Assembly (NCBI RefSeq): GCF_964204865.1
Contig: NC_135250.1
Location: forward strand, 4,836,001 to 4,900,000
Source of the DNA: Styela clava
Lineage: Eukaryota > Chordata > Ascidiacea > Stolidobranchia > Styelidae
DNA: 64,000 nucleotides
Reading direction: 5' to 3'
Of this stretch, positions 21,136 through 64,000 are shown piece by piece; the stretch's first letter is position 1; every line of letters begins with the position of its first letter. The notes below the pieces were generated by a model. The model did no database searches, was not told the origin of the DNA, and worked only from the letters and a program-made list of their open reading frames with translations. Position numbers and translations under genes: made by a program.

Positions 21136-24100
21136 TCACAATTTTATTTCACACATGTACGCAATTAGGAGATTGCAGGATTCATCGTTGAGTTGCCACA
21201 AGTTTTCTGTGCGTACAGCCAGATGCACACAATCCTCGCCATCTCCGGAGTTGTTGGGCTCACCTTCGAACCAGGCTGTATTTTCTATAGTGGACGGCAC
21301 ACCATCAGCCCAAATAAAATCTCCTTCGTTCTTTATATCGTCCAAACCAATCCAGATTGGAGTGTTGCCGGCCACAAGAGAATGCTTTAATTCACTGAAA
21401 AAAAGAATTTACGTTACGATTACGTTGGGCAAAATATGTTAAGCTTATCAATTGAGAAAACAGAATTTTACATTTAGACTGTTTGTTTTTGGACACGTTT
21501 AGTGGCCATAACGATCGTTTCAAAATTTTGTTGTTATTGTTATTTTCTTTCGTCATTATCATTAAAAAATCGCTTTTCTCTTCGAAAACTGGACCAATTG
21601 CTTTGGAATTTTCAGTGGTTCAAGATTGATTTTTTTGCCAGAAGGCTATTACTTTCATTTATTCCTGAATTTTCTATGAATCTTATGAGATCTAATATTT
21701 CATCCAAAATTGCGCTGTATTTATTTTCAATTATGGGAACACGGTTTTTAATCCGCCAAGCGTGACGGCTGACTGTGGAAATTCTTGCGACTGAAAACCC
21801 GGAACTTTTTGAGGGTACGGTACCGGTAACGTCAAAGGTAAACCCTGCTTCGCTCTAGTCCACGTGTCCATATATTTGAGCGTTGCTCTCTTGTTTCTAG
21901 AAAGCAATCGTGAGTCAGCTGACAATCGACAATCTTCTGGGGAATTCCTAATAACACCCGCTTCCAGATGAAGTCAAGCCCCTGCACCACAAATCAAATA
22001 CTTCTTTAGTCGAGTCGCAAATTAGAATGCTCAAACACATTTTTGAATACAACGTATATATGTACATTTTGTTGAATTTCAAAATTTGCCTGCTGCTATA
22101 TCGAGTACGTCTAAATTTGCAATTTTATTTTTAAATATTACTCAAAAATTAGAATATTTTAGCGCAGTGGTACACAAAGAAATATGAGTGATTTTTTCAA
22201 ACTGAAACCGGGCAGAGATGAGGAAAAAGAGTTGACCTTCTGCCTTTATTATTAGGTCCATATGTTTACCAACTTTAAAAAGACATAAAGTACATATAAC
22301 GATCACGAAACTAATTTTTATTTGAAAGCAGCATTTTTTTCGTGTAAGTGCGCCGTGCGTTTTTTCCCTGGTAATATGGCGCCGCACGAACAAAAAGTTT
22401 GGGAAATGCTATTCTAACGTATTAGATGAAGATGATTGAATTTAAATTTTATTTACCTTCGAATTGCTGCAGCCCGAATACCAACTGATGCCAGATTAGC
22501 CGAGTATTTTTGACAGTTTTCTTTAGCAGTTGCATAGTTGACATTATCGAGAAACAATTTATAATGCAAGTTATTACTCGCTTTGAACCAAGTCCTGAAT
22601 TTCACGTTTTGTTTCAGTTGCATTATGAATTCTGAAAACGGTAAAAGCAAGGGTTTCATTTCTACACCTGGGAAAGTTGTTTTCTTTTCTAAAGTTACGT
22701 TTTTACCAGTCTTGGGTAGAATTTCTGAAACCTCTTACTATAAAACAGCCGTGAATCAACGGACAATCGGACTTTCGAGTAGGGCTGTGCATTTACGAAA
22801 TTTCAGAATCGATTAAAACATTTTTTTTCGACCCGAACAGAATCTGGAATACTTGGAAGATATTTGAATTAAAAAAATCGAGTCAATCACTGAGATAAGT
22901 CTCACTGGTCTCGATTCTTTTATTCTACTTTTATGTATGAGGCACAAGACAATCAGCCACTGCTAACTTACGATATGTAAAAAGTTCCTATTTTGAAAAG
23001 ACTTATATATATTTAGATATATATATTTCTGTTTCGGCATTTTCTACCCAATTTAGTACATTGTGGGTGAGGAGAAGGGATTTGGACTCAAGATATGCAC
23101 ATTTTACGTTATAAACGTTAGGCCATCGCGTTCAACTAAATGCTATGAATTGAATCAAAGCTGAATATTAATTACCTTCGGTATCAGTAGTTTCGCAAGA
23201 TCCCTCAGATATCAAACGACCGTTCATCAATTTTCGGATACATAACCCATCTGTGTGATTGACATAATGATTGAATGATGAAAGATTGAAGACTAAACTC
23301 TCTATGAGGTCTAAATGTTTTGGGGAAGTTGTTCAGTTCTAATAGAAGCTACTAGATACGCATACGGATCCACTGACCCGGGGGTGGCCAACTCGCGACT
23401 CGAGAGCCGCATGCGGCTCTTGCACCGGTTTCATGCGGCTCTTTTCGTCTTGTTTATTCTAAGGAAAAATATCTTGCTAATTACTATTCTTCACGTTTCA
23501 ATCCAACATATTATGACTCGTTGCGCGTTTTTTTTATGTCGAAAACACAAGAGCGCCTTCATTCACTTAACTGTACAATTGTCCATTATAACGATACAAT
23601 TGCATTTATTGGTGTGAATAGCGTTTATTGCAAGGCCTGAACGTTTCGTCCTTCTAACTTACAAAGGCATATCTGCTGTTCATGTGTGTTATTATTTATA
23701 ATGTGGCTCTTGGCTGTAATATGACACAAAATGTAGCTATCGATCTCTGACTGGTTGGCCAGCCCTGCACTAGCCGCTAGCGCAAGGGCATTGAGGAAGG
23801 ATTGCGACTTAGTCACACATAACCTCATCTCATATCTCCTGTTGTTGTTGTGAAAAAATCTCCGTCACAACTAATCAACCAAAAGGTTTCGAATATTTAT
23901 TACTTGGGGCTGCTAGAACGAAATGTTTTTTTTTTCAATTTACGCTAAAGTTTTGCTGGTTTTTATAATTCACCGACACACGTTAATATGACATTCGCCA
24001 TTCAGTACAATTTTTCTATCACCAACACTTATTGACATAACAGTGGCCATATATTTCATTTGACCTTCTGTTTCATATTTGAACATTTTTCATTATTTTG

Positions 24101-25387
24101 ATAATTGGGATCATAACGTCATATTCATATTGCATTCGTTGCAATTCTTATAAAATTATCATTTACTGACATTACGGTGGCCGTATCTTGCTCGGTATTC
24201 GACGTTTGACCTGTATAATCATTGTTTTAATAATAATCATCACAGAATATAAGAGCCTACCGGTCGCCCACGATCGTTTAGGTATCCGTTGGTTTCGCTC
24301 CTGACAAGGCCTTGTACAGTAGCAGCCACTGATATTTAACGACATGTAAGTCACTGCTAAGTTTGAAAACCCCGTACTGAAGCGAACGCGCCGTGGCAAA
24401 ATTTTCTTATCAAAGTTAGTTAGAATTCTGATTTTTTTTTTAAAAACTCCGGAATCTTCTTGTAATAGAGTGGGCCACGGTAACCTATCTGCTTAATCCG
24501 TTGGATTTCAACCTATGACATCGTATGTTGAAATCTCGAGTTAAAATTCCGTGCCCACCCGGGTGTCATAAATTGCAATCCCGGTCTGGGAAGATTAAGC
24601 TATGGTTTACCTATAGGCTTATCCATACGTCCTGGTTTAGCTGGGACAATGGATGTTAATGGGGGGAGTCTATTTATCGCTGATTTGCGACTCACATCAC
24701 TACTCCAGTAAGAGAATGAGAAAACTACTGTCATAACTATTATATGTTTAATATTTCAATTCATTATCTAACCTTAGCCGTACTGCCATTAAATTATCAA
24801 AAATGCCGACAAACAGCGCGTTTTCCAATGATTAGAATATCAATACTATTCATAAGAGTTGTATATACTAAGCCTCGTAATTGAACCAAAGGTTTGTCCA
24901 ATTCTTTGTCTTTTTTAAAATATGATAAGCCTATCCTTACCCAACAGTGACTGCATGTGCACAGCTTTGTTCGGAGGTAATGACGTACGAGTACGTATTA
25001 TATAAAAACAATGAACGACTGTCAACAAAATTGATTTTTATTATACAAAATACTGGGTACTTATGTAGTATGTGAACCAAGATGGCGGACACCGGAACGT
25101 AGTATGTGTACCAGGTTAAAGGTCATTAATTTCAGGTACAAATACAACGGGAGTCACTTGGCTAGTCCCTAAACTTGTAATAGAACTAAAATAAGAAAAA
25201 AATTGAAATAAAATTATGGCCTAACCTTAATCTGGTACACATACTACGTTCCGGTGTCCGCCATCGTGGTGCACATACTACGGGAGCGCCAAAAAATGAA
25301 GGTTATTGTATAATTCAGCTTACCTTGTTTTGCTGAACAGGCTAAAAGTAAAATGGCAATGACAAGAAAAATTAGATATAATTTCAT
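21136..25387 (-). CDS. Secreted C-type lectin, EPN type (4 exons, 190 aa)
   Basis: Exons in transcript order: 25387-25324, 23250-23176, 22631-22457, 21394-21136. The phases are 1, 1, 2 and the joined length is 573 nt. Exon 1 is a signal peptide (KLYLIFLVIAILLLACSA). Exon 2 encodes a 25-residue two-Cys module (GLCIRKLMNGRLISEGSCE). Exon 3 starts with a short Lys/Gln stretch and then the lectin N-terminal half (FRTWFKASNNLHYKLF; ATAKENCQKYSANLASVG). Exon 4 has WIGLDDI, EPN at residues 150-152, EDC at 158-160, WQLND at 171-175 and the final Cys at 186. EPN with LND is the Ca-dependent mannose-type pattern of the C-type lectin family. All four structural Cys are present. The 39-nt coiled-coil exon found in sister genes is absent, and exon 3 is correspondingly 175 nt rather than 145-148. 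The first 64-nt exon is duplicated at 56507-56444 and at 43059-43122. Confidence 0.88.
23384..23771. mobile_element. Non-autonomous hAT-like element
   Basis: Left end GGGGTGGCCAACTCGCGACT with a repeated GCGGCTCTT; right end has GTGGCTCTTGG and then GGTTGGCCAGCCCTGC, mirroring the left. This pattern is typical of short hAT derivatives. It lies in intron 1 of the EPN lectin and is absent from the corresponding place in copy B. Confidence 0.6.
25054..25290. repeat. Foldback MITE family M, copy in block A
   Basis: TATGTAGTATGTGAACCAAG with GCGGACACCGGAACGTAGTA at the left and the mirrored CGTTCCGGTGTCCGCCATCG, CTACGGGAGCGCC at the right. The same copy is at the same place in 56176-56410 and, inverted, 43155-43392, so it predates those duplications. 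Confidence 0.85.
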
Positions 25388-28079
25388 TTTGGTGTATATT
25401 GCTAATAATAATTCTCGCTAAATTGTTTTCTGCAAAATAGACCACCCTCATTTTTACTAATGAAAAAAAAAATTGAAATTATATTACACGCTATCGGGTC
25501 CTTAGCTATTTTATAATACAGTTTCGATTCAATACTCCCTACAACCTCGCTAAAAAATATAACCAATAAATTTCTAGAATAGTAATTAATGTAAAATGCT
25601 ATAGTGTCATTGATGAAGCATCGCGCTCGAGCTATTTCCTCACCTCAGCTTAAAATGCCAATATGATTTCCTTGTACAATAATAATAAAGCGCCATACAA
25701 TATGATGGGGGTTATTGAATAAAAAACATGTCATCAACGTTCATTGCCCTAGGAAGATAAAACACGCGATAGATGAGCAATAAGATCTAAATCTGTTCGT
25801 CATTACGAAATACAAATCTCTACCAATCTTCTATAACGAACATTATTCTCTTCTAAGTTGCAGAAGCGAACATTGTTCAGTGATGTTTTGATCCCACACG
25901 GATTTATCTTTGTCGCTCATGATGTTGTTCTATGATTTTTTAGCATGTTACATGAGGCCTACTTTTATTATAGACCAGCAATTCCCAAATTTTTTGTTCG
26001 TGCGGCGCCAAATTTTCAGGGAAAATCTCACGGCACACTTACTCGAAAAAAATGCTGCTTTCAAAGAAAACTCATTTCTGTGATCGCTAATGTGTACTTT
26101 ATGCTATTTAAAGTTTGTGAACATGTATGACTATCGAAAAATTGCAAAAGGTCAACTCTTCTTTTTCATCTCTGCCTGATTTTCTTTTGTTAGGCTAAAC
26201 ACTCATGTTCGCTAAATTCGGTTCAGCTGATAAATAAACAGCACGGAGTGAGGTTCACGTAGCCCTTAGCATATTATGATTTTCGCCACCATTCTAGTTT
26301 GCGAGACTCAGAAGATAAACTGAGAAACATGTTTCAGCTATTACTAACTATAGCAAAGACAGGTCATGTTCGAAAATATGACTTCAATAAAAAAAATTTA
26401 AAAATTCACCTCGACCTTTGACAGAAAGAAAAAAAATGGCGGCGGTTCGAAATTTATGTCTGAACAAATTCGAATAATTTACTATTCGATTCGACATGAC
26501 CAGTTCTATTTGTAATCGAGCAAGGGGCTTTTGTCCACAATATGAGTCTTTGAACGAGTGGAAAACAAAAATTAAAAAGTAATATTGATGACGTTGGCCG
26601 TTTTTTGCCAACGAATATTCGAAGATAGAGCCGTAATTGAATCAAGGAAAATGACGTGGAAGCTTCTTGTTCGTTGCCCAAAATGTATATTGGAATTAGT
26701 GCTAGGCATTTTTGAAAACCTGGTGATTTCAGAATTGAATTGAATATTTTTTTCGAAATGGATCTCGAAGATTTTCAACTGTATACTATGTGACATGTTT
26801 CATCAATATCTCACAAGAAAGAAAAGAGTCATATTTCGAAATTACGTTGTAAAAAGATGGCTTCAATAAAAAAAAATAAGGAATTAAGATCAACCATTTA
26901 TCTCTGATTCGAAACTCCCGCCTGAACCGGTTCGATAATTTTCGATTCGATATGCCCAGCCCTAATTGGAATGTGCTTCAATCAATTTCCACCTTGTAAT
27001 AAAGTCGATTTCTCGGGATTTACATGTCGAGAACTTTACGATCATATCAAATATTCTCCGATAAAAAATGACTGAACTTATCTTTATATACAATTATATA
27101 TAAAATTTAGCCTCCAAGTAACGCAGAAGCATTTCCTTGTATGAAAACTGACACATGAGAGTTCAAAATTTTCCCTTCACTACCCTCGTATCAAACATGG
27201 CGAATATTCGGTTTCTACTCAGCCAATATGACTCAACAAAACACACGAATGGTAGGTTGTAATGATTTCCGTGTCCGATGATTGAGTAAGTCTCCATTTA
27301 GCATGATTTGAATATGAATTGTATATATATGATCTAAAGAAATTCCTACTCTATACTTCCGTTATGTATACACTCATTAGATATAAATTCATACCGTCTG
27401 TGACATAGGACGCAAGAGGTGTAGTTTTCCATTAGTGTAGGATTGAGACCCCACATCAGATCGGCATGTTTTAATTGTGTTACGCTTAACCAGCATAAGA
27501 ATTGAACTACAGCTCAATTAATGTGTGTAGTAGGTAGGCCTATAGTTGTTTTATGATAGTGAATCCTTGCATACAGCGACTTGAGGTGAAATTCTGGATC
27601 AAGATTAGTGACATACAAGGGGAATATGACGTACCGACATAGAGATTATTTAATTACGTTGAATCCAAAACAATCGAGTAAAGAATGAAATAATTTGGAG
27701 TGTAAAAAGCCTTGTTTATGGTCTTATGCAAGGTTTTTTTTACCAGAGACTCGGCCTACTTAGAGGACTATGAGCGTTTCTCTAAAAGCCACAAACGCCT
27801 TCACTATGTACGATAGGCGGTGACTATACTGATTTAAAGTAAATTGGCAGTGATCTGTCTCCATTTTTGACTTTATTATTTTGCTCTATTGTTTTTAGTA
27901 GTATTGTTTAGTAGTATGAAAAACGACTGATAGAAGCGTGTTATTAGCAAACTTAGGTGTTTTAATGAAGCACAAAGGCTGACAGTCTTTTGAAGAGTAT
28001 CGCGCGCGAATCAGCAAAGTTTGAAAACCACTCGTCTAATGATTTACCATCGAAACTGGTAAAAAGTTGTTTCTTCAAC
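25388..28079. promoter_or_regulatory. Shared intergenic region of a head-to-head lectin pair
   Basis: About 2.7 kb separates the start codons of the minus-strand EPN lectin and the plus-strand stalked QPD lectin. The same arrangement and length is kept at 56508-59206. It includes a degraded element ending GCCCAGCCCTAAT near 26950 with an inverted-type partner. No core promoter motif is certain. Shared regulation of the two genes is inferred only from arrangement. Confidence 0.4.
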
Positions 28080-31000
28080 ATGAAGGCTGTGATCAAAATA
28101 TTTCTTCTGATTTTACTTTTACAAACTACAAACAGCCGTGTCAATGGTATGAATTTGATCTGGTAAACTTTAACTTTCTTGTACCTTGAAGTATCGATTA
28201 CCGGTTTCCTAGTTATAAAATAGTTATATCAGTGGCATTCAATCAGGGTTCCACCAGTACAGTCCAGGGTTCCGCAAGTTTACTTTCAGTTCCGATAGTT
28301 TGTATTATGAAATGAATATTGTTTAAATATAAATACACTGGTATATGAAATGTGTTCCACAAGTGTTCTGTGAATGGTACAAGGGTTCCTCGAGTCTCCG
28401 GAATTTCATTGTTGTTCCGTTCCAATAAAAATGTTGTAATACATTGAATTATATAATAGTGGCCATAGGTTGAACATTTGTATTCGTTTTTTTTCGATAT
28501 CTTCATTGTATTGGAATTTTACAGACCAAAAATAGCGGAAATAACAATGCGTCACATACAAAGCGCAATACAGTGACAGCTTATAAAATGCCAATCTTAA
28601 CGGGGACGACATCCGCTATTGCGTTTCATAGATCACAAAGTTGACTCAACATTCGAACTTTAATATGTACCAACTTACAGAGACTCGTTTTTGTGTATTA
28701 TTTTCCACCCACCATGTCATACACTCATTAGCGGTTTCTGCTTTTTATAAAACTTCAATGTATACTTCTCATTTACCGCTTTTAACTAAACTTTCAGGTA
28801 TGCTTTTTTCAAATGTTGTAGTAACATAAACCTTCATTTGAAAAAGAGTTTGTAGTTGAAGAATACAAGCGTTGAAATTTGAAAATAAATGCTAAGGAGG
28901 TCCTTAGATGGAGTTCTCACCTCTTTCGATAGAACAATGTCTATTCACACTTTTGTCAACAATTACCATGTGTAGCTCATGATAGAAGCGTTCATTTTTA
29001 TTGTATTTTAATTGCAGGAATCAATTTTTATGGTCAGAATTTATTTAGACACTGGAAATTCCGATTTAATATCACAATATTTTTATAATTAGCTCGTATT
29101 ATATTTTATCATTCAGGAAACTCGAACGAACCCTCCTGTACTGAGGACAGAGGCAAGAAGACTTTTCAAATAAACTTTTCCTCGGTGAGCGTAGCATTAT
29201 GCAATATACTTTCATACTAGGTCTTTTATGCAATGATACAGTAGTAAAAAATACGGCAACAATATATCAATACTGATACAATAACTAGAAAATAATAAAA
29301 GACCCAAGTACATACCGAACACAGCAGGAAGGAGACTAACGTTAGCACCTCCTTCGGCTTCATGTCGATTGTTTACGTTCGCGCGTCGAAAGCGATTGAG
29401 CGTAAAGATCACGTGACCAACAAGAAACCACTCGGGGCGCAATTGTACAAAATTTGCGATGAAACTGGAAGCCTATAAGAAATGTTAGAAATATAAAAAT
29501 AATAACCATTTGGCCTAACCCTAACTACAGAAAATTAGTAACCGATAGGCTTGGTTGGCACTTAATAGGAGAAGCAATTTTTCGCCTGTGTGAACTCCAA
29601 GAATTTTCCTGAACTTATATTTCGATCGTATTGTTTCATCGTTATCGTTAAGACAAAGTCAAGCAAAATCTAATTAACGATATTAGCCCACGAAAAGATG
29701 TAATCGAAATGGTATTTCCCAAACAATATTATAGGTTTAGATTAAAAAAAACTTAGATTGTAATTGTATCACAAATTTATTATATTCTAACACTTTGATT
29801 TTCTTTCTTCTCAGGTTGCTGATCTGGAAAGTAAGTGTAAAACATATTATTTTGGGAACGAAAATGAAAATCGGTCTTCTACAGAGTGGGGCAAATAAAC
29901 CTCCGCATTCTATTTAATTAGAAACTGCCTTTTTAATCACCTTAACTTATTTAATAAATCTGGGATGATAATACAACGCTACCTCCAAAGAAAGTATTGG
30001 TTCGCTTCAGCGTAGACGTGAAACAGATACAGGAAGTTTGACTTAACAAGTTTAAACAGGCTATGCGGTAGGCTAACAAATTGGCGCTCCGGCAGTATGT
30101 GTACCAAGATGACGCAAAATCTGAACCCTAACCTGGTACACATACTATGTTCAGGTTGTGCGCCATCTTGGTACACATACTTCGGGAGCACCAACAAACC
30201 CTATATTTTTTATCGTTAATATTTAAAAGCTTGACATGTTTGAAACTTCACAATAACGCAGATTAATATTCATTAGGTATCATTGATATTAATTTGTTTT
30301 GAGCATTCTTCTGAAATCAAATTACAAAAACAATTCAAATAATTCAAAATGAGATAAAAGAATATAGGCTACAACTTCCAAAGTGCTATGTTAATTTACT
30401 CAGAAAAGTTGGTGATGCCTGAATTCCGTAAGTTTCTAGCCAGGTAATACTACTAATGCAGTTTTCATCGAATGTCGATAAAGTAATCCAACGAATAAAT
30501 ACTTTAAAACCATTTTAAAAATATAAATTTTGTCCAGAAAAATTAAGAAACGATCCTGACCTACAACGTTACTTGGAAGAGAAACTATCGACAAATGCAG
30601 AAGAATATGAAATTACAACAGGTTATTATTATATTTGTCTTCACTTATTTTTGCTCAAATATTTAGTACTTTCTCTCATGAACCTGGGATTTCGATTTTG
30701 TTTTTCACATAAGGAAATTTGCTCAATGCAAGGTCCATAGCACTCACTCAGAAGTGTCATTAGTTAGTGAGGCAATAATGAAATATAATGTAGAATTGGA
30801 ATTGACGCGAGACATGAAGAATAGGATTGTCCTGTTTATCTTTGAGGAGAGGAAAGTCGATTAGTTGGCTTAATCAAAGGCCGTACCACGGTCTCTCGCC
30901 CTGTCCATGTCGGGTATGAGATTGGTTAGGCAGTTATTTGTTTTCAGATATTTCGACTCGATGTTCGGTTGCATCATTTCAGGTGATATGTTGTATGACA

Positions 31001-32546
31001 CAGTCATAGTAAAAAGCCATTTTTAACTACTCGATTATTCATCAAAATAGTAACTTTCCTGTTTAAAAACTACAATACGAGTTAAGGCCTACTTTTCAAA
31101 CAATGAGCTCTTCAGCTCAAACAATACACACACATATATATATATATATATGCCTACTAGTCTTGCTTTATGATTGGCGAATGATTTATTATATTTTACA
31201 GTTCTTCAATCTATCGATCCTCAATTAAGTGAGACAACGGCTACTTCTCCACAGATGGGGACCACTCATGCTGAAATGACAACAGAAAAATCAACTACTG
31301 GTATAATATATATGTTTACTGTCTATGTTTAGATGCTGGAAGCCTATCGAGAACTTGAATTTTGTGTACGTTATATGTCGGTGCATTTTTCTCGTTTGAA
31401 AAAGAAGAGCCCCCGTCGCTAAATTAATCAAAATGTCTGGGGAAGTTTTTCTAGAATCTGACATTTTTGGCAAATCTGCTTTTTCGTGTCAGGAATTTAT
31501 TAATTCAAATCAATATCCCTCTCTGCTTACAGCTTTTTTTCATTCAATATAGTACGATTATTCGCGATACTCGTCTAACCATTAAAAATAAGACTTCGTA
31601 TCAAATGAAGAATTCGTATCATTTTGAATCTATTTTCCATATATATGTGCAGACGACCTTAAGACATGGAATAAATCAAGCAGCAATTATTATTACAAAC
31701 TATTTCGCAACCCAGTCAACTACACAACTGCTAAAGCAAATTGTCAAAAGTTAGGAGCCGATCTTGCATCAGTGGGAGTGAGGAATGCTACCGTCCGCAG
31801 GTTAGGTGCTATTTGTTGCTAACATCAAGTAGACACATTACTTATATTTTAAATACATTCGGATCCCAAATAATCAGGTCAGTGGAGTTGGAATTTAGAA
31901 TTTGGCATGTTTTCTGCAGCCGGATTTAGAATTCCTGTATCCGGGGTCAAAGTTGGGGTCGAAATTTTAGAATTCCAATGGTAATAAAATCAGTTGAAAT
32001 TTTTTGCAGAAATATAGAAAAGCATTGATTTTTCCAAGCGTTTTAAACAGTCTATTGAAATAAAAATAATTTTGTGGCCCCTGAAGCCGACAACCTTAGA
32101 CCACCCTGGTTTAATTTAGGTGTTCATGGATAAGTATTATGGTGATAATAAAAACGAAAGAGTATCAATTATACTACGGCGAATATAAAGGTAGGAAATT
32201 CCTCCTCGTTTCAGAAATGTTGATTTGGGTCTTTAATTGTTTGATTACCTAACCTAAATTATATATATTTTATTGCAGCAAAATACTTCAAATGGTGAAG
32301 TCAGGGGAAAAAGATACTTGGGTTGGTCTGGATGACATCAATGAAGAAGGAAGATTTGTGTGGGCTGATGGCGTTATTTTAATAAAAGAGAATGCATATT
32401 GGAATGTTGGACAACCAGACGACTATGAAGACAACGAAGATTGTAGCGAATTCAGTGGTTATCAAAGTTGGAAGTTAAATGACGCTCGATGCTCAGACCA
32501 CCAATATTACATTTGCGAAAAAAGACCGTTTTTTTGGGATCAGTGA
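28080..32546 (+). CDS. Secreted C-type lectin with Ser/Thr stalk, QPD type (7 exons, 249 aa)
   Basis: Exons 28080-28146, 29117-29184, 29815-29830, 30538-30621, 31202-31300, 31653-31800 and 32279-32546. All have GT/AG borders, joining to 750 nt. Exon 1 is a signal peptide (MKAVIKIFLLILLLQ). Exon 2 has a single Cys (EPSCTEDRG). A 16-nt micro-exon (VADLE) leads into a charged helical segment (LQRYLEEKLSTNAEEYE), a probable coiled coil. Exon 5 is a 33-residue Ser/Thr-rich segment (SETTATSPQMGTTHAEM), a likely O-glycosylated stalk. Exons 6-7 are the lectin domain: LKTWNKSSSNYYYKLF, ANCQKLGADLASVGV, WVGLDDI, QPD at residues 206-208, EDC at 214-216, WKLND at 225-229 and the final Cys at 240. QPD is the galactose-type tripeptide of this family. 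No break is seen. A near-copy at 59207 is broken. Confidence 0.88.
30083..30192. repeat. Foldback MITE family M, short copy
   Basis: GGCGCTCCGGCAGTATGTGT with ACCAAGATG at the left and CCATCTTGGTACACATACTT then CGGGAGCACC at the right; only about 110 bp. In an intron of the stalked lectin and at the same place in its copy (61211-61320). Confidence 0.8.
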
Positions 32547-32563: not shown

Positions 32564-33119
32564 CAGGGGTGGGCAACCTTTTTCGGCTCGCGTGCCAAAA
32601 TCGACTAAATTTAAAGAAAAAATTTATCCGCGTGCCGACCAAAATTGAAAACAATGCTTAGCTACTTTCAAAGCAAAAATACACAATAATAAACCTCTTA
32701 AAAATGTACAGACAGATTCAATATCCGGGAAAATATCAGTTCAACAAATAGATTTTATTAATTTTCTTATTCTACATCAGTGAGACTTCTGCTGCTGCAT
32801 TACCGCTGGTAGAGATTTTACATTGAGTATATTTTGTAACTTTCAAAGAAATACACGAACTACTGATTTCATCTTTTAGGCTACTCCTGTTACGAGACTC
32901 AATAAAGTCCATAACTGAGAACAGAGATTCACAAGCATATGTAGATGAAAACATGAAGAGTAATGCAGTTGCAAAGTTTTTGAGACACTAAAAATTCTCG
33001 GGAATGGAATCCCAATCAACCAATAGTTCGTTTTTTGCACTTCTCCCTCGTATACCCTTCTCTAATCGCTTACATTTCTTTTGAAATTTGGCACGCGTGC
33101 CAGGGGTTGCCCACCCCTG
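32564..33119. mobile_element. hAT-family element with transposase remnant, 556 bp
   Basis: Terminal inverted repeats CAGGGGTGGGCAACC and GGTTGCCCACCCCTG. Target duplication CTATAAAG / CTATAGAG (8 bp, one mismatch). Internal TTCGGCTCGCGTGCCAAA is mirrored by TTTGGCACGCGTGCCA. Inserted 17 bp after the stop codon of the stalked lectin, so it probably contributes to that gene's 3' UTR. It carries a minus-strand transposase fragment. Confidence 0.88.
32772..32990 (-). pseudogene. hAT transposase C-terminal dimerisation domain, remnant
   Basis: The frame includes YACESLFSVMDFIESRNRSS followed by LKDEI, matching the hAT dimerisation pattern (Tyr-x-Cys-Glu-Ser-x-Phe-Ser-x-Met, then Arg-x-Ser-Leu-x-Asp-Glu). 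Nothing of the catalytic domain remains in the element. Related broken sequence is in the 43839-44741 element. This assigns the 32564 element to hAT by coding remnant as well as by its ends. Confidence 0.7.
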
Positions 33120-49275: not shown

Positions 49276-49659
49276 CCATTTTTGAATACCTGCTGATTTC
49301 AGAAACGAATCGAATATTGTTTTCTAATCAAATCGAACCTGCGTACTTGGGAAATATGTAATTGTGTGAGACTTTTTTATTTCAATTGGTCCTCCAAACA
49401 CATAAATTACTGAAAACTTAAAATTCATCACTCAAACAGTTCGCTACGTGTTTACATACAAAAAAAACATAATTTACCAATAACTCTCTATAAAATAAGG
49501 AAACAAAATGCATTGTAAAAGTATGACTCTAATAAAAAAAAATTTGGGGAATCCATCTCAACCTTTGGCGGCGAAAAAACAAAGCGGCGGCAATTCGATT
49601 CGATTAAAATGTTACTTGTCAACTTGAGGTTAATACTTTTGAACATTATTGTTAATACA

Positions 49660-49990: not shown

Positions 49991-50097
49991 AAAATAAATT
50001 TGCATGAAAATGCAAATACTGAATTCCTGCTTTTGTCTAATAACGAAGAACATGAAATGACATTAAAAAAAAAAACTTAAATCGGCATAAAATCTTG

Positions 50098-50153
50098 GCC
50101 CAACCCTAACCTGGTACACACGCTATGTTCCGGTTTACATACAACGGGAGTAC
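50098..50153. repeat. Family M MITE fragment
   Basis: CAACCCTAACCTGGTACACA then TATGTTCCGG and ACAACGGGAGTACC: an end-only fragment. Confidence 0.5.
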
Positions 50154-50206
50154 CAAAATATCAGCCAATCACAAAAGAAATGAGAATAACAACAGAATCA
50201 AGTATT

Positions 50207-53200: not shown

Positions 53201-56200
53201 ATGTAATCATTTTTGAAGAAATTGTTCGTTATAAAAAAGATTTCTACTCGAGTCAGTAAACAGTTAAAATAAATCGTAACCGGTAACCATCTAAAATCGG
53301 TTAACCGATTAATCGTTAACCATTCCCAGCCCTACCTATTACACGTCGAAGATGTTTCTGATTGAAAATATTTTACAATTATTATCGTGTATTTCAATTT
53401 TGTCGAGATAGTTTGGGCGGCCTCGGCAATAAATCTAAAAGCAAATTGTGTAAATTATTGTGTACAACCTTTCATTTTGATAGTGATCGAACATAAGAGC
53501 ACATTTTCTCATTTCTTGCAATAAGCAGTTTAAGTTGACGGTATTAATTTATAAACAAAAATAAAATCATAACAGCCGATATGAAAAATCAGCGCCGACT
53601 CGCAATATAAAAGAAGATCTCCGGTCCTAATTCTCTTTTATTGGCCGATGGGAATTTGGGAATAAGGTTTACTCATTTGATAATGACAGTGATCGCGTAA
53701 ATATATTTGCGTTTTACTTAATAAACGTATGGTGTCGTGAGCAATATAAAAACTAAATTTATAATAGCTGCCCTGCCACTAGCCAATCAACTATCTGTCA
53801 TGCCATTAGTCCTCTTTTTCATGTGCGTGTGCTCATTTTCGTACATAACTTTCTCTCTTAGATTTCAACTTTTAACGCATCATCCTCTCACCTCCTCCGA
53901 TCACCGTCCTCCCAATCTCCACGGTCTTCGCTTAAGTAGTCAAATATTACGTCCGAATTTTGTGGGGGCTTGGAACGGATAAATGTATTTTCAGGTAAAA
54001 AGCGTCCGTACTTACGAAATTTTCTACTTGCAAAGGGGCTTAGAACAAATTAATTTTGTTCCAATTACGGAAGCCCCTTCGTAAGTAGAAAATTCTGTGA
54101 GGTACACATGATAAGAAAAGAGAGCAGAGAAATAACAAATGAAAACTACAAATTTTTCATATTCAGAGACTTTCGTAGGCGGAGTTTGTATTTGGCCCTT
54201 TCGTGAAAAAGGTTGCACACCCCTGAGCTAGGCCATCGCGTTCAACTAAATAACACGGGTCGAGTTAACGCCGATTATTAATTACCTTCGGTATCAGTAG
54301 TTTCGCAAGATCCCTCAGATATCAAACGACCGTTCTTCAATTTTCGAATACATAATCCATCTGTGTGATTGAAATAATATTGAATGATAAAAAGGTTAAA
54401 GACGAAACTGTGTATGAAGTCAAAATGTTTTGGGAGGTAGTTCAGTTTTGATAGACGCTACTAGATTTCTAGAACGAAAGCATGTCTTAGGATTGTTTAT
54501 ATATAATCGGACAGAAAGTGGACCGTTTGCAAATCTATTTGTGTTAGTGTGCAGCAAGAATTTTTAATAGGATAGTCATGTTTATTCCTGCTGCAGCATC
54601 CTTGCATTATATGCATACGGATCTAACAGAGGAAGGGTATTGAGAAAGGATAGGGGCAAAAAATACTAATCTACTAACCAACTTATCAATTAATAGGTTT
54701 TGAATTTGTATTACACGTGGATAAAGTGCTGCAAGAACGAAATGTCATATTTCTTAATTTACGCTAAAGTTTTGCTGGTTTTTATAATTCACCGACACAC
54801 GTTAATATGGCATTCGGTGAAAATTTTCTATAATCAACACATTGACATAACAATGGCCATATCTTTCCTTTGACCTTCTGCTTCATATTTGAACATTTCT
54901 CATTATTTTGATAATTGGGATCATAACGTCATATTCATATTGCATTCGTTGTTATCATTTACTGACATTACGGTGGTCGTATCTGTTATCTGACCTTATG
55001 TTTCATATTCCAAGCGTTGCTCATTATTTAGATAATTGGGATTATACCCTCACTCACACACCCTCTGCGTAAGCTTGCTCGGTATTCGACGTTTGACCTG
55101 TATATTCATTGTTTTCGTAATAAACATCACAGAATATATGAGCCTACCGGTCGCCCACGATCGTTTAGGTATCCGTTTGTTTCGCTCCTGACAAGGCCTT
55201 GTACAGCAGCGGCCACTGATATTTAACGACATGTAAGTAACTTCTAGGTTTGAAAGCCCCATACTGGAGCGAACGAGTCTTGGGTAAAGTGGAACGCATA
55301 GGATTTGAACCCAAGATGTGTAACCTGTGATGCCAACACATTTTGGTTCATTGCTCCGACCCAAGACATATTATGAATATTAGTATTTAAACTAAATAGA
55401 ATACTGATCACGTTTTGCGCAGTGGCAAAATTGACCTATCAAAGTTAGTTAGAAAGTTTTGTAATGAAGTGGGCTGCGGTAACCCATCTGGTTAATCTGC
55501 TGGACTTTAACATCGCTGGTTGAAATATCGAGTTGAAATTTCGTGCCCACTCGGGTATAATAAATTGAGTATACCCAATTGCCTATAGGCAATGCCGGAC
55601 TGGATTAAGCTATGATAGCTCTTTAACTTGGTTTACCATACGTCTTGGTTTGGCTGGGACAGTCCCGATTTTGACAAGCTGTCCAGTCCGATAGACCCAA
55701 ATGTCCCGGTCATGTAGTATGGAAGTCATGAATATTTTTTTTATTTGATATCGATACAAAGTATCTTTTTAATCTTAATAAGGCAGTCTATTTATCGCTG
55801 GTTTCCGACTCACTTCCCTACTTCAGTAAGTGAGAGAGAACTATTATATGTCATAATTATTATATGTTCAATTTTCCAATTCATTATCTAATCTTAGCCG
55901 TACTGTCATTAAATTATCCAAAATGCCGAAAAAGAGCGCGTTTTCCAATGATTAGAATATCAATACTATTCATAAGAGTTGTATATACTAAGCCTCGTAA
56001 TTGAACCAAAGGTTTGTCCAATCCTTCGTTTTTTTATATTTATATGGTAAGCCTATCCTTACCCAACAGTGACTGCCTGTGCAGAGCTTTGTTCGGAGTT
56101 ATTGACGTACGAGTACGTATTATATAAAAACAATGAACGACTGTTAACAAAATTGATTTCTATTAAACAAAAAACTGGGTACTTATGTCGTATGTGAACC

Positions 56201-56507
56201 AAGATGGCGGACGCCGGAACGTAGTACGTGTACCAGGTTAGAGTTAGGCCATTGATTTCAGGTACAAATACTACGGCAGTCACTTGATTAGTCCCTGAAC
56301 ACGTAATAGAACTAAAAGAAGGAAAATTGGAATAAAATTATTGCCTAACCTAACCTAACCTGGTACACATACTACGTTCCGGTGTCTGCCACACATACTA
56401 CGGGAGCGCCAAAAAATGAAGGTTATTGTATCATTCAGCTTACCTTGTTTTGCTGAACAGGCTAAAAGTAAAATGGCAATTACAAGAAAAATTAGATATA
56501 ATTTCAT
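50207..56507 (-). CDS. Secreted C-type lectin, EPS type, apparent chimera (5 exons, 189 aa)
   Basis: Exons in transcript order: 56507-56444, 54360-54286, 52054-52016, 51032-50888, 50453-50207. Phases are 1, 1, 1, 2 and the total is 570 nt. Exon 1 is a signal peptide (KLYLIFLVIAILLLACSA). Exon 2 is the two-Cys module (GLCIRKLKNGRLISEGSC). Exon 3 is the helical exon DVLGQLRKSVKAK. Exons 4-5 are the lectin domain: FKGWYRASNGFYYKLF, SECQKRGADLASTGV, WIGLGKFEGKFIW, EPS at residues 151-153, EDC, WYLND and a final YICEARA. EPS replaces EPN; the ascidian lectin TC14 also has EPS and binds galactose. Exons 1-2 belong to the duplicated block shared with the 21136 gene, whereas exons 3-5 are of another lineage. 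The 2.2-kb intron 2 contains an hAT-like insert, so transcript evidence should confirm the join. Confidence 0.78.
51168..51820. mobile_element. Non-autonomous hAT-like element, about 650 bp
   Basis: Ends CATGGTTGTCCAACC and GGTTGGACAACCCAGC. Flanks CTTTAAAG / GTTTAAAG, an 8-bp target duplication with one mismatch. Internal GCGGGCCAC near both ends. It lies in intron 3 of the 50207 lectin. A 100-codon minus-strand frame inside has no recognised domain. Confidence 0.75.
52625..53334. mobile_element. Foldback hAT-like element, about 710 bp
   Basis: Ends TAGGGCTGGAAATTTC and ATTCCCAGCCCTA. Inner inverted matches TTAACCGTTAACCAGGTAAA and TCGGTTAACCGATTAATCGT. Flanks CTTATTAC and CCTATTAC resemble an 8-bp duplication. 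In intron 2 of the 50207 lectin. No intact coding frame. Confidence 0.75.
56176..56410. repeat. Foldback MITE family M, copy in block B
   Basis: TATGTCGTATGTGAACCAAG with GCGGACGCCGGAACG at the left and CTACGTTCCGGTGTCTGCCA then CTACGGGAGCGCC at the right. Orthologous to the block A copy at 25054. Confidence 0.85.
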
Positions 56508-59206
56508 TTTGGTATATATTGCTTTAAATATTAAATCTCGCTAAATTGTTTTCTGCAAAATAGACCACCCTCATTTTTTTTTAAAATATTACACACTATC
56601 GGGTCCTTAGCTATTTTATAATACAGTTTCAATTCAATACTCCCTACAACCTCGCTAAAAAATATAACCAATAAATTTCTAGGAGAGATTATTGTAAAAT
56701 GATATAGTGTCATTGATAAAGCATCGCGCTCGCGCTATTTCCTCCCGTCAGCTTAAGGCCAATATAATTTCCTTGTACAATAATAATAAAGCGCCATACA
56801 ATATGATGGGGGTTATTGAATAAAAAACATGTCATCAACGTTCATTGCCCTAGGAAGATAAAACACGCGATAGATGAGCAATACAGATCTAAATCTGTTC
56901 GTCATTACGAAATACAAATCTCTACCAATCTTCTATAACGAACATTATTCTCTTCTAAGTTGCAGAAGCGAACATTGTTCAGTGATGTTTTGATCCCACA
57001 CGGATTTATCTTTGTCGCTCATGATGTTGTTCTAAGATTTTTTAGCATGTAACATGAGTCCTACTTTCATTATAGACAAGCGGTTCCCAAATTTTCTGTT
57101 CGTGCGGCGCCAAATTTTCAGGGAAAATCTCACGGCACACTTACACGAAAAAAATGCTTCTTTCGAAGAAAACTCATTTCTGTGATCGCCAATGTGTACT
57201 TTATGCTATTTAAAGTTTGTGAACATGTATGACTATCGAAAAATTGCAAAAGGTCAACTCTTCTTTTTCATCTCCGCCTGATTTTCCTCTGTTATGCTAA
57301 ACACTCATATTCGCTAAATTCGGTTCAGCTGATAAATAAACAGCACGGAGTGAGGTTCACGTAAGCCTTAGCATATATATTATGATTTTCGCCACCATTC
57401 TAGTTTGCGAGACTCCGAAGATAAACTGAGAAACATGTTTCAGCTATAACTAACTATAGCAAAAACGAGTCATGTCCGAAAATATGACTTCAATAAAGAA
57501 AATTGAAGAATTCACCTCGACCTTTGGCAGACAGAAAAAAAAATGGCGGCGATTCCAAATTTATGTCTGAACAAATTCGAATAATTTACTATTTGATTCG
57601 ACATGACCAGTTCTACTGGTAATCGAGCAAGGGGCTTTTGTCCACAATCTGAGTCTTTGAACGAGTGGAAAACAAAAATTAAAAAGTAATATTGATGACG
57701 TCTGCCGTTTCTTGCCAACGAATATTCGAAGATAGAGCCGTAATTGAATCAAGGAAAATGACTTGGAAGCTCCTTGTTCGTTGCCCAAAATGTATATTGG
57801 AATTAGTGCTAGGCATTTTTGAAAACCTGATGATTTCAGAATCGAATATTTTTTTCGAAATGAATCTCGAAGATTTTCAACTGTATGTGACATGTTTCAT
57901 CAATATCTCACAAGAAAGAAAAGAGTCATATTCCGAAATTACGTTGTTAAAGCATGGCTTCGATAAAAAAAAAATAAGGAATTTACCTCAACCCTTTATC
58001 GGTGATTCGAAACTCCCGTCTGAACCGGTTCGATAATTTTCGATTCGATATGCCCAGCCCTAATTGGAATGTGCTTCAATCAATATCCATTTTGTAATAA
58101 GTCGATTTCTCGGGATTTAAATGTCGAGAACTTTAGGATCATATCAAATATTCTCCGATAAAAATGACTGAACTTATCTTTATATACAATTATATATAAA
58201 AATGAGCCTCCAAGTAACGCAGAAGCAGTTCATTGTATGAAAACTGACACATGAGAGTTCAAAATTTTCTTCCACTACCCTCGTATCAAACATGGCGAAT
58301 ATTCGGTTGCTACCCAGCCAATATGACTCAACAAAACACACGAATGGTAGGTTGTAATGATTTCCGTGTCTGCTGATTGAGTAAGTCTCCATTTGGTATG
58401 ATTTGAATATGAACTGTATATATATATGATCTACAAAAATATTCTTGATCTATACTTCCGTTATGTATAAACTCATTAGATAGCCTATTCACACCGTCTG
58501 TGACAATGTTCGCAAGCGGTGTAGCTTTCCATGGCTTAATGTCTTACCAGAAGAAAACTTTAGTCTAGGATTGAGATCTGAAGTCTGATAAGCATGTTTC
58601 AATTGTGTTACGCCTAACCAGCATAAGAATTAAACTACAGCTCAGCTTACGTGTGTACTGGGAGTAGTTTTATAATAGTGAATCCTTGTATATTGCGACT
58701 TGAGGTGAAATTCTGGATCAAGATTAGTGCCATAAAAGGGGAATATGACGTACCCGACGTAGAGATTATTTAATTACGTTGAATCCAAAACAATCGAGTA
58801 AAAATTGAAATAATTTGGAGTGTAAAAAAAAAAGCCTTGTTTATTGTCTTATGCTAGATGTTTTTTAACAGAGACTCGGCCTACCTAAGGGGCTATGAGC
58901 GTTTCTATAGAAGCCACAAACGCGCCTTCACTATGTACGATAGGCGGTGACTATATTGATTTAAAGTAAATTGGCAGTGATCTGTCTCCAATTTTGACTT
59001 TATTTCTTTGCTCTATTGTTTTTAGTAGTATTGTTTAGTAGTATGAAAAACGACTGATAGAAGCGTGTTATTAGCAAATCTAGGTGTTTTAATGAAGCAC
59101 AAGGGCTGACAGTCTTTTGAAGAGTATCGCGCGCGAATCAGGGAAGTTCGAGAATCACTCGTCTAATGATTTACCATCGAAACTGGTAAAAAGTTGTTTC
59201 TTCAAC
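56508..59206. promoter_or_regulatory. Intergenic region of the duplicated head-to-head lectin pair
   Basis: Counterpart of 25388-28079 with nearly the same length and content, separating the minus-strand EPS lectin from the broken stalked lectin. Confidence 0.4.
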
Positions 59207-61210
59207 ATGAAGGCTGGGATCGAAATATTTCTTCTGATTTTACTTTTACAAACTACAAACAGCCGTGTCAATGGTATGAGTTTGATCTGGTAAACTTTAA
59301 AACTTTCTTGTACCTTGAAGTATTGATTACCGTTTTCCTAGTTATAAAATGGTAATATCAGTAGCATTAAATTAGGGTTCCACCAGTACAGTCCAGGGTT
59401 TCACTAGTTTACTTTCAGTTCCGATAGTCTGTATTATGAAATGAATATTGTTTAAATATAAATACACTGGTATATAAAATGTGTTCCACAAGTGTTCTGT
59501 GAATGGTACAAGAGTTCCTCGAGTCTCCGGAATTTCATTGTTGTTCCGTTCCAATAAAAATGTTGTAATACATTGAATTATATAATAGTGGCCATAGGTT
59601 GAACATTTGTATTCGTTTTTTTTCGATATCTTCATTGTATTGGAATTTTACAGACCAAAAATAGCAGAAATACCAATGCGTCACATACAAAGCGCAATAC
59701 AGTGACAGCTTATAAAATGCCAATCTTAACGGGGACGACATCCGCTATTGCGTTTCATAGGTCACAAAGTTGACTCAACATTCGAACTTTAATATGTACC
59801 AACTTACAGAGACTCGTTTTTGTGTATTATTTTCCACCCACCATGTCATACACTCATTAGCGGTTTCTGCTTTTTATAAAACTTCAATGTATACTTCTCA
59901 TTTACCGCTTTTAACTAAACTTTCAGGTATGCTTTTTTCAAATGTTGTAGTAACATAAACCTTCATTTGAAAAAGAGTTTGTAGTTGAAGAATACAAGCG
60001 TTGAAATTTGAAAATAAATGCTAAGGAGGTCCTTAGATGGAGTTCTCACCTCTTTCGATAGAACAATGTCTATTCACACTTTTGTCAACAATTACCATGT
60101 GTAGCTCATGATAGAAGCGTTCATTGTTATTGTATTTTAATTGCAGGAATCAATTTTTATGGTCAGAATTTATTTAGACACTGGAAATTCCGATTTAATA
60201 TCACAATATTTTTATAATTAGCTCGTATTATATTTTATCATTCAGGAAACTCGAACGAACCCTCCTGTACTGAGGACAGAGGCAAGAAGACTTTTCAAAT
60301 AAACTTTTCCTCGGTGAGCGTAGCATTATGCAATATACTTTCATACTAGGTCTTTTATGCAATGATACAGTAGTAAAAAATACGGCAACAATATATCAAT
60401 ACTGATACAATAACTAGAAAATAATAAAAGACCCAAGTACATACCGAACACAGCAGGAAGGAGACTAACGTTAGCACCTCCTTCGGCTTCATGTCGATTG
60501 TTTACGTTCGCGCGTCGAAAGCGATTGAGCGTAAAGATCACGTGACCAACAAGAAACCACTCGGGGCGCAATTGTACAAAATTTGCGATGAAACTGGAAG
60601 CCTATAAGAAATGTTAAAAATATAAAAATAATAACCATTTAGCCTAACCCTAACTACAGAAAATTAGTAACCGATAGGCTTGGTTGGCACTTAATAGGAG
60701 AAGCAATTTTTCGCCTGTGTGAACTCCAAGAATTTTTCTGAACTTATATTTCGATCGTATTGTTTCATCGTTATCGTTAAGACAAAGTCAAGCAAAATCT
60801 AATTAACGATATTAGCCCACGAAAAGATGTAATCGAAATGGTATTTCCCAAACAATATTATAGGTTTAGATTAAAAAAACTTAGATTGTAATTGTATCAC
60901 AAATTTATTATATTCTAACACTTCGATTTTCTTTCTTCTCAGGTTGCTGATCTGAAAAGTAAGTGTAAAACATATTATTTTGGAAACGAAAATGAAAATC
61001 GGTCTTCTACAGAGTGGGGCGAATAAATCTCCGCATTCTATTTAATTAGAAACTGCCTTTTTAATCACCTTAACTTATTTAATAAATCTGGGATGATAAT
61101 ACAACGCTACCTCCAAAGAAAGTATTGGTTCGCTTCAGCGTAGACGTGAAACAGATACAGGAAGTTTGACTTAACAAGTTTAAACAGGCTATGCGGTAGG
61201 CTAACAAATC

Positions 61211-61320
61211 GGCGCTCCGGCAGTATTTGTACCAAGATGACGCAAAACCTGAACCCTAACCTGGTACACATACTATGTTCAGGTTGTGCGCCATCTTGGT
61301 ACACATACTTCGGGAGCACC
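61211..61320. repeat. Foldback MITE family M, short copy in block B
   Basis: The same insertion as 30083-30192, almost identical in sequence. Confidence 0.8.
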
Positions 61321-62265
61321 AACAAACCCTATATTTTTTATCGTTAATATTTAAAAGCTTGACATGTTTGAAACTTCACAATAACGCAGATTAATATCCA
61401 TTAGGTATCATTGATATTAATTTGTTTTGAGCATTCTTCTGAAATCGAATTACAAAAACAATTCAAATAATTCAAAATGAGATAAAAGAATATAGGCTAC
61501 AACTTCTAAAGTGCTATGTTAATTTACTCAGAAAAGTTGTTGATGCCTAAATTCCGTAAGTTTCTAGCCAGGTAATACTACTAATGCAGTTTTCATCGAA
61601 TGTCGATAAAGTAATCCAACGAATAAATACTTTAAAACCATTTTAAAAATATAAATTTTGTGCAGAAAAATTAAGAAACAATCTTGACCTACAACGCTAC
61701 TTGGAAGAGAAACTATCGACAAATGCAGAAGAATATGAAATCACAACAGGTTATTGTTGTATTTGTCTTCACTTATTTTTGCTCCAGTATTCATTACTTT
61801 CTCCCATGAACCTGGGAATTCTATTTTGTTTTTCACATAAGGAAATTCGCTCAATGCAAGGTTCCGAGCACTCACTCAGAGGTGTCATTAGTTAGTGAGA
61901 CAATAATGAAATATAATGTAGAATTGAGATTGACGCGAGACATGAAGAATAGGATTGTCCTGTTTACCTTTAGGAACAGGAAAGTCGATTAGTTGGCTTA
62001 ATCAAAGGCCGTACCACGGTCTCTCGTCCTGTCCATGTCGGGTATGATATTAGTTAGCCAGTTATTTGTTTTCAGATATTTCGACTTGATGGTCGGTTGC
62101 ATCATTTCAGTTAATATGTTGTATGACACAGTCATAGTAAGAAGCCATTTTATCGAACTCATTTTTAACTACTCGAATATTTACCAAAATGGTAACTTTC
62201 CCGTTTAAAAACTACAATACGGGGTAGGGCCTACTTTTCGAACAATGAGCTCTTCAACTCAAACA

Positions 62266-62267
62266 AT

Positions 62268-62294
<27 letters not shown>
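62266..62294. repeat. (CA)n microsatellite
   Basis: About 14 CA units. At the homologous position in copy A (31126-31150) the tract is a short CA run followed by TA repeats. Confidence 0.9.
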
Positions 62295-62298
<4 letters not shown>

Positions 62299-64000
62299 GG
62301 CCCACTAGTCTTGCTTTATGATCGGCGAATGATTATTTATATTTTACAGTTCTTCAATCTATCGATCCTCAACTAAGTGAGACAGCAGCTACTTCTTCAC
62401 AGATGGAAACCACTCATGCTGAAATGACAACAGAAAAATCAACTACTGGTATAATATATATGTTTACTTCATATATATTTAGGTGCTGGCAGTCCATCAA
62501 GAATTGAATTGGATTTTGTGTACATTATATGTTTGTGCATTTTTCTAGTTTAAGAAGGCACCCGTCGACCTCCGTTTTTTTTTTTTGTTAAAGAAATCAG
62601 AAGGCTAAAAAAATTCAAATAGAAAAATAGAATGAACAATATTTTACCCTATCAATTTCGGGTCGAGGGTCCTTATCCTGTAAACACATTAGTTATATTT
62701 AATTTTTGCGGAAAGCGCCCATCCGAAAAAAACACCTTCAACCACTGCCAAAACAAGTGCTAAAACTCAAAATGTCTTGGCATGTTTTTCTAAAATCTCA
62801 CACTTTTGGTAAATCCCCTTCTTGGCGTCAGGAATTTATTCAGTCAAATCAATATCCCCCTCCGCTTACAGCTTCTTTTTGTCCAATCTAGTACGATTAT
62901 TCGCCATACTCGTCTGACCATCAAAATAAAATAAAAATTTGTATCATATTGAATCTATTTCCCCATATATGTACAGACGACCTTAAGACATGGAATAAAT
63001 CAAGCAACAATTATTATTACAAACTATTTCGCAACCCAGTCAACTACGCGACTGCTAAAGCAAATTGTCAAAAGTTAGGAGCCGATCTTGCATCAGTGGG
63101 AGTAAGGAATGCTACCGTCCGCAGGTTAGATGCTATTTTTAAAAACATCAAGTAGACATATCACTTGGCATATGTAGTGCTTAGAATTTAAAATACATTG
63201 GGATCTCAAATAATTATGAGAATGGAGCCGCCGTCGGATTTTTAAACTTTTCGGGTTTTGGAATCGTAGTCAAAACCCAGAATTTTCCGTAGGAATCAAT
63301 GGAAGATTGCATACGCCAAAGCTTATGTTATTAGCAAAGCATTAATAAATGTTGATTTTTCTCGAAACTAGAGTCGAAGCCGAATCGTTTTCAGACCGGA
63401 ATCGACATAAATTGTGAATTTCCGCCATATCCTTGTGGATAGTGAGTTGTAAAAATTCAATATGCAAACTACCTTATTATTTTTGAGTATAAGAGATATT
63501 TTGCAAAATTTAAACATTTCATAACATTTCTGATTTTTGAAGAGCATTTTTGAAAAGTGATGCCAAAGGATTTACTTCATTTCATCAAGGATTTTAATTG
63601 TTTGACTAAATTATTTGAATTATATATAAACATTATTGCAGCAAAATTCTTCAAATGGTGAAGTCAGGAGGAAAAAGGACTTGGGTTGGTCTTGATTACA
63701 TTGAACAAGAAGGAAGATTTGTTTGGGCTGATGGCGTGAATTCAACAAGAGAGAATACAAATTGAAATGCTGGACAACCAGACGACCATAGAAAAAACGA
63801 AGATTGTGGCGAGTTCAGTCGTTACATGAATTGGAAGTTAAATGACGTCCCATGTTCATTGTTCCAATATTATATTTGTGAAAAATCTTAAATGGGATCA
63901 GTGAATGAGATTCCAATTAAAGATTTGTTATAGCGTGAGGTCTACCACACCATAGCTGGAGACGTATATAGTAACGTAACTTAAGGTCAAGGGTCAAATC

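Follow-up and report, generated by a model that had tools for sequence, protein, structure and literature searches.

A tandem cluster of small C-type lectin genes in Styela clava with excess amino acid replacement at predicted sugar contacts beside the calcium-site tripeptide

Clustered, rapidly diversified mosaic genes are known from snails (FREPs) and sea urchins (185/333), in which they encode proteins of other folds. Among proteins with a C-type lectin domain (CTLD), the collectins (MBL, SP-D, and CL-11) combine a Cys-containing N terminus, a helix, and the CTLD in that order, and langerin and DC-SIGN are single-gene receptors in human rather than members of an expanded cluster. Here, we describe a cluster of C-type lectin genes of the ascidian Styela clava in a stretch of 64,000 bp (C1:4836001-4900000; from here on, the window) of a genome of 376.6 Mb in 379 contigs. 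In this lectin family, the calcium-site tripeptide is constrained and replacements are in excess at neighboring predicted sugar contacts, and one gene of the cluster is a chimera; unlike in FREPs and 185/333, diversification is on the sugar contacts of a CTLD. The closest solved relative of one of the genes is TC14 of Polyandrocarpa misakiensis (1byf and 1tlg), for which residues 1 to 20 are given as signal peptide and the other 125 as mature protein; its calcium pocket (ligands Glu106, Asn109, Asp127, and Asp128) recognizes galactose and fucose, and TC14-3 is cytostatic during budding, an activity that depends on calcium and dimerization (PMC3293724). MBL-type collectin genes are known in Ciona and other ascidians (PMC5465252), and the dispensable genes of lancelets are enriched in the Lectin_C domain (PMC12373286), a parallel for the birth and death of the cluster described here. 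Targeted searches of the literature on ascidian C-type lectins, selection, paralogues, and exon shuffling found no account of this lectin family.

Each lectin gene was rebuilt exon by exon from genomic DNA. The window (guanine-plus-cytosine content, 33 to 37%) contains spliced genes and numerous repeats, and its lectin copies are six genes and one relic; gene H lies just beyond its end, so that the cluster continues past the window (all positions are window coordinates; signal peptides and helices were judged by eye):

21136-25387, minus strand: gene D, EPN lectin, with GT-AG introns and fitting phases; Pfam Lectin_C, 71.3 bits; exons 25324-25387 (putative signal peptide), 23176-23250 (two-cysteine module, type alpha), 22457-22631 (short helix and CTLD exon 1), and 21136-21394 (CTLD exon 2).
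28080-32546, plus strand: gene A, QPD lectin, gene model; Pfam Lectin_C, 62 bits; exons 28080-28146, 29117-29184, 29815-29830, 30538-30621, 31202-31300 (Ser/Thr-rich), and 31653-31800 and 32279-32546 (CTLD).
36577-37575, plus strand: relic lectin copy, disrupted by a stop and a frameshift; exons 36577-36615 (helix) and 37325-37575 (CTLD exon 2).
38935-41492, minus strand: gene E, EPN lectin, gene model; Pfam Lectin_C, 44.7 bits; exons 41432-41492, 40699-40773 (two-cysteine module, type beta), 40269-40316, 39817-39964 (CTLD exon 1), and 38935-39190 (CTLD exon 2).
45716-48318, plus strand: gene B, QPD lectin, gene model; Pfam Lectin_C, 63.7 bits; exons 45716-45779, 46262-46336 (two-cysteine module, type beta), 47200-47238, 47533-47680, and 48063-48318.
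50207-56507, minus strand: gene F, EPS lectin; Pfam Lectin_C, 51.9 bits; top PDB match, TC14; exons 56444-56507, 54286-54360 (two-cysteine module, type alpha), 52016-52054, 50888-51032, and 50207-50453.
59207-63891, plus strand: gene C, broken QPD copy with an in-frame TGA at 63763; exons 59207-59273, 60246-60313, 60943-60958, 61666-61749, 62350-62448, 62977-63124, and 63642-63891.
66064-68670, minus strand: gene H, EPN lectin.

The introns of models A, B, D, E, and F are all GT-AG, with compatible phases (1 ahead of the lectin domain and 2 within it, plus one phase-0 intron in A) and complete reading frames, and these five models, which were the ones submitted (all but C and H), pass the Pfam cutoff for Lectin_C (PF00059) of 22.6 bits with 44.7 to 71.3 bits over a near-full domain. 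The tripeptides EPN (D and E), QPD (A and B), and EPS (F) are as reported in an earlier, sequence-only reading, which placed the cluster at 21136-63891; the cluster is real, and that reading missed the broken copy C, the relic, and gene H. Besides H, the queries used detected no additional exons between −10000 and +94000 around the window. By inspection, the first exon is hydrophobic in every model, and the putative signal peptides are based on this. The common architecture proposed for all five genes holds for B, E, and F, in which signal peptide, two-cysteine exon, short helix exon, and two CTLD exons follow in this order; in D, the helix is not on its own exon, and A and C have seven exons with a different front half that includes a Ser/Thr-rich stretch and no two-cysteine exon of the B/E/F kind. 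The two-cysteine exon had no Pfam match when full proteins were searched. The four conserved CTLD cysteines (two disulfides) are present in A, B, D, and F. Collectins were matched by sequence; the lectins described here differ from them in that their helix is very short and no collagen-type Gly-X-Y run was seen by eye in any model.

The best PDB match of F is TC14 (1byf, rank 1, E = 4e-15). TC14 ranks 29th among the matches of A and is not among the 26 chains that match D at E of 1e-10 or better; A and D match vertebrate receptors better, and multi-domain receptors rank high partly via summed scores. Like F, which is predicted to be secreted, TC14 is a secreted single CTLD with EPS followed by Asn, and its calcium ligands align with E, N, N, and D of F as counted in the alignment. 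TC14 differs in having neither a two-cysteine module nor a helix exon; two positions ahead of its third-loop Cys, Gln replaces the acidic residue, and it is described as an asexual-budding factor. EPS was considered as a distinct or unknown third specificity, and this was rejected because TC14 is itself an EPS lectin that recognizes galactose and fucose (PMC3293724); EPS is more readily seen as TC14-like than as forming a third class. The calcium-ligand pattern (E/Q-P-N/D/S, an acidic residue, and N-D) is present in A, B, D, E, F, and H. Sugar-binding CTLDs typically have a Trp directly before N-D (WND); in these six genes this residue is Leu, as in TC14 (LND in F and LDD in TC14). Galactose-type QPD CTLDs have an aromatic stacking residue two residues after QPD and a Gly-rich loop, and at this position we found Tyr in A and B, His in the broken copy C, and Trp in the relic, while a long Gly-rich loop was not seen by eye.

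Genome-wide, at least 149 exon or domain matches to the CTLD were found among the 150 of 698 candidates that were scored. From the window, selected regions, and 60 short stretches, we obtained 96 exon-2 matches, of which two fragments on contig C16 and two relic pieces were dropped, leaving 92 domains, a sample picked by their split-exon look; one of the 60 short stretches (L039) gave no match, and L001 to L008 were unused. Using 32 independent recent pairs (silent divergence [dS] of <0.9) drawn from these domains, we calculated the ratio of replacement to silent changes per site (pN/pS). The E/Q and N/D/S columns of the tripeptide have a pN/pS of 0.35 to 0.47 with the all-site silent rate and of 0.38 to 0.64 with the silent rate of those columns only, and the first half of exon 2 has a pN/pS of 0.38 to 0.48. 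The ratio is 2.0 (bootstrap range, 1.6 to 2.4) for the two residues after the calcium-binding N-D, 1.3 (1.0 to 1.6) for the residues after the next Cys, and 1.2 (0.96 to 1.55) for the loop after the tripeptide, these column groups having been drawn once the column ranks were known. Because the fast columns had been seen beforehand, we added a held-out split test and a contact test defined from the literature. In the former, the top eight columns from a random half of the pairs had a median held-out pN/pS of 1.69, with values of >1 in 300 of 300 splits.

The contact test builds on langerin and DC-SIGN, EPN lectins of the same fold that differ from those described here in that they are membrane receptors, have neck repeats, and keep the WND motif intact. 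The relevant sections of the langerin study state the EPN/QPD rule, report that langerin binds 6-sulfated galactose, name Ala289 and Lys299 as langerin contacts, and give the equivalents of 309, 310, 313, and 315 as Lewis-x determinants of DC-SIGN (PMC3065333). These six positions, whose columns were found by counting residues from the ligands of calcium (Glu285, Asn287, Glu293, and Asn307), coincide with fast columns here. Their pN/pS is 1.91 (bootstrap range, 1.58 to 2.29), compared to 0.26 for the calcium ligands and 0.53 for the other columns, and none of 4,000 random six-column sets from 76 well-filled columns reached the contact pN. The contact ratio is 2.34 under a transition bias of 2.1 and 1.74 to 2.16 in 8 of 8 subsets (three divergence levels; without the C16 cluster, C8, or the window genes; with or without intact E293 and ND). 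Specifically, it is 2.03 (1.57 to 2.55) in the 16 pairs in which both members keep E293 and ND, where the low calcium-ligand figure arises by construction, 1.81 in the pairs without intact E293 and ND, and 2.03 in the 29 stop-free pairs. In the 12 pairs with both exons, pN/pS is 0.42 for exon 1 versus 0.65 for exon 2. Genes F and H display the same tendency on a small scale: exon 2 of H is 92.7% identical to that of F, yet reads EPN instead of EPS, and the two differ by six replacements and no silent change, with three of the six replacements at the 11 binding-site columns (287, 289, and 309; P = 0.03). These data support diversifying selection beside the tripeptide and not on it. The sequence-only reading had suggested selection for different ligands; in the per-residue check across paralogues, run here as pN/pS, this is supported at the six neighboring contact positions (1.9 to 2.3) and not at the tripeptide columns, which are constrained.

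Several observations weigh against this reading. Whole-exon pN/pS is <1 in the 32 pairs (0.57 to 0.61; 0.74 with transition bias), and whole-exon pairwise dN/dS among the window genes is 0.10 to 0.50 and <1 wherever computable. The contact ratio drops to 1.40 (bootstrap range, 1.03 to 2.05) when silent changes from the same columns only are used, and column 56 is filled in both members of just 17 of the 32 pairs. The contact test is not fully blind, as the source of the contact residues was picked after the fast columns were known and with particular residues already in view; Ile282, Pro283, and Gly284, which are also named in the consulted sections of PMC3065333, were left out of the contact set, and columns 48 to 51, the stretch holding them, have a pN/pS of 1.26 (0.82 to 1.79). 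Exon 1 of F and H, away from the binding site, differs by 10 replacements and 4 silent changes. A strict calcium-site pattern is present in 50 of the 92 domains and fails in 42, although TC14, which binds sugar, would not pass it either, having Gln at the acidic position. Of the five genes taken to be intact, all have full frames, but in E the first of the conserved CTLD cysteines is changed to Phe; gene C is broken; and H has TT at the end of the module exon where B has a GT donor, which makes splicing of H uncertain.

The 92 domains carry EPN (39), QPD (26), QPN (11), EPS (7), EPT (3), EPD (2), QPS (2), PPD (1), and EPK (1). On a 92-tip tree built without the tripeptide columns, which is weakly resolved (42 of 88 inner branches with support of <80), a minimum of 28 tripeptide changes is needed, 15 for E/Q alone, and the tripeptide differs within 7 of the 32 recent pairs. 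Together with the switch between the near-identical domains of F and H, these changes support that tripeptide diversity is real. In the C16 cluster, two domains of ~70 residues, EPN and QPN, differ by three residues. Tripeptide diversity is, thus, a habit of the whole family and not peculiar to this window. The earlier proposal that the paralogues differ mainly at the tripeptide does not hold, as EPx and QPD exon-2 domains share just 32 to 47 of 81 to 84 aligned residues.

The front and lectin halves of the genes have separate histories, as indicated by three observations: the two-cysteine exon occurs in two types, alpha (D and F) and beta (B, E, and H); the short helix exon is almost identical in F, B, H, and the relic; and the front half of A and C is unrelated to that of the other copies. 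H is a chimera of an F-type CTLD half and an inverted B-type front half: H 64698-66970 is co-linear with the 3′ half of F (48797-51119; 89.1%), and H 67269-68746 matches the B front half (47395-45640) in inverted orientation in four pieces (77 to 89%). The exon 2 of the relic is F-like (80.7% DNA identity to F exon 2) and reads QPD. Among A, B, and C, CTLD exon 1 has 5, 2, and 3 silent changes and exon 2 has 18.5, 13.6, and 17.7; the low silent divergence of exon 1 could result from gene conversion.

The gene order is D(−) A(+) [relic +] E(−) B(+) F(−) C(+) H(−), i.e., three head-to-head pairs of a minus-strand EPx gene and a plus-strand QPD gene plus one single gene. The chance of this strand alternation is 0.016 for the seven genes, the relic being left out. 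In the C16 cluster (6.43 to 6.51 Mb), 12 full domains strictly alternate strands (chance, 0.0005), followed by a broken plus-strand copy, left out of this calculation, that breaks the pattern; in clusters on C8 (14.7 Mb) and C16 (10.2 Mb), all domains are on the same strand. In the window, the alternation is explained by duplication of a two-gene unit (partners 1 and 2 below). The duplicated segments are as follows:

24664-31418, plus strand: segmental duplication partner 1, with the D promoter side and most of A; 93.0% identity to 55782-62567.
55782-62567, plus strand: segmental duplication partner 2, with the F promoter side and most of C.
42495-45620, minus strand: fragmented, inverted copies, located between E and B, of the unit 1/3 intergenic sequence.
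43059-43121, inside 42495-45620: relic D/F-type signal-peptide exon without its ATG.

Dispersed repeats (32564-33087, 43839-44321, and many short stretches) recur across the cluster and its flanks; they are perhaps miniature inverted-repeat transposable elements and possible substrates for cluster rearrangements. We also observed repeated stops at a single codon. In alignment column 47, 89 of the 92 domains have Trp and the other three have TGA, these being the ones at 63763 (the single in-frame stop of gene C, at the Trp ahead of the tripeptide loop), C16:10212375, and C16:10231028; the relic has TAG there, near 37445. In an intact exon 2, a single step can create a stop in 40 to 52 ways, of which two involve this codon, and the recurrence may be due to chance.

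One alternative is relaxed constraint, in which the surface loops of a redundant, oversized lectin family drift without selection for new ligands. Such drift would fit the broken copies (C, the relic, C16b_10212375, C16b_10231028, and L045), the many domains without a strict calcium site, and the overall pN/pS of 0.57 to 0.74; drift alone, however, gives a ratio of at most 1, compared to 1.9 to 2.3 at the contacts (1.40 with local silent sites), and the contact ratio is no lower in pairs that keep E293 and ND or in stop-free pairs. We therefore regard this alternative as unlikely. An assembly artifact, in which uncollapsed haplotypes joined in tandem mimic paralogues, would account for two tandem stretches that are 93% alike, but genes E and B lie between them, the silent sites of exon 2 are saturated between D and F, and H combines B-like and F-like parts, all of which make such an artifact highly improbable.

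Two further alternatives concern function. The lectins could act in development or growth control, like TC14, rather than in recognition of microbes; the match of F to TC14 and the cytostatic role of TC14-3 speak for this, whereas a developmental signal would not usually be expected to show high copy number, repeated breakage, and fast-changing sugar contacts, and TC14, as described, has no two-cysteine module. We give this possibility about the same low weight as relaxed constraint. Lectins of allorecognition or gamete recognition, polymorphic among individuals, would in principle also be clustered, rapidly diversifying extracellular recognition proteins; allorecognition had been suggested in the sequence-only reading. 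However, related domains are present in several clusters on separate contigs (C1, C8, C13, and C16), unlike a single polymorphic locus, and known ascidian allorecognition systems, to our knowledge, use other protein types. With polymorphism viewed through one assembly, we consider this role less probable still than the developmental one.

Outside the lectin genes, the window contains an uninterrupted universal stress protein frame at 4135-4650 on the minus strand (Pfam Usp, 81.1 bits) and glutathione S-transferase-like pieces on the plus strand at 951-1295, where the likeness was judged by eye and the only family listed is a sub-threshold PRF match, and at 2540-2755 (GST_C, 27 bits). At ~12150-15980 on the minus strand lies a possible divergent C-type-lectin-like gene with a coiled-coil front, recognized by eye from its cysteine pattern and W-GL motif; the pieces tried had no Pfam lectin match. 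An array of 43 copies of the 12-base unit AACAGACAGACA at 35781-36304 is the source of long open frames there. Scanning the window with Rfam (gathering threshold) and for tRNAs gave no matches.

Altogether, we consider it likely that the locus is a tandem gene cluster, evolving by birth and death, for small secreted C-type lectins in which the calcium site is conserved, sugar contacts are driven to change, and modules are re-paired. The cluster would be part of a large genome-wide lectin expansion, and its proteins would consist of a signal peptide, mostly a two-cysteine module of ~25 residues and a short helix, perhaps for oligomerization, and one calcium-type carbohydrate-recognition domain. 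Purifying selection would maintain the calcium site while the tripeptide toggles occasionally, residues predicted to contact the remainder of the glycan would be driven to change, and duplication of the head-to-head pair, inversion, and recombination would re-pair N-terminal modules with recognition domains. The proteins are predicted to be secreted, to bind sugars with differing specificities, to oligomerize, and to serve as soluble pattern-recognition molecules in immunity or in gut or mucus; this is probably a fast-evolving secreted lectin family of a known kind, a pattern-recognition repertoire. More tentatively, it may be a modular repertoire with a retained calcium core and positively selected contacts, in which recombination swaps N-terminal, perhaps oligomerization, modules and the divergent EPx/QPD pair is the unit of duplication.

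If true, such a modular repertoire would represent, in an invertebrate, the equivalent of a receptor repertoire, with C-type lectins as its building blocks. Expanded lectin families are common among invertebrates, and whether the copies differ in ligand is rarely clear. Here, the fast sites coincide with the glycan contacts singled out by human lectin structures, and the natural genes F and H, which are nearly identical, have different residues at EPS/EPN and at two neighboring contact positions. A few recombinant domains would thus suffice to test directly whether different copies read different glycans. The findings are also a warning that specificity should not be read from the tripeptide alone.

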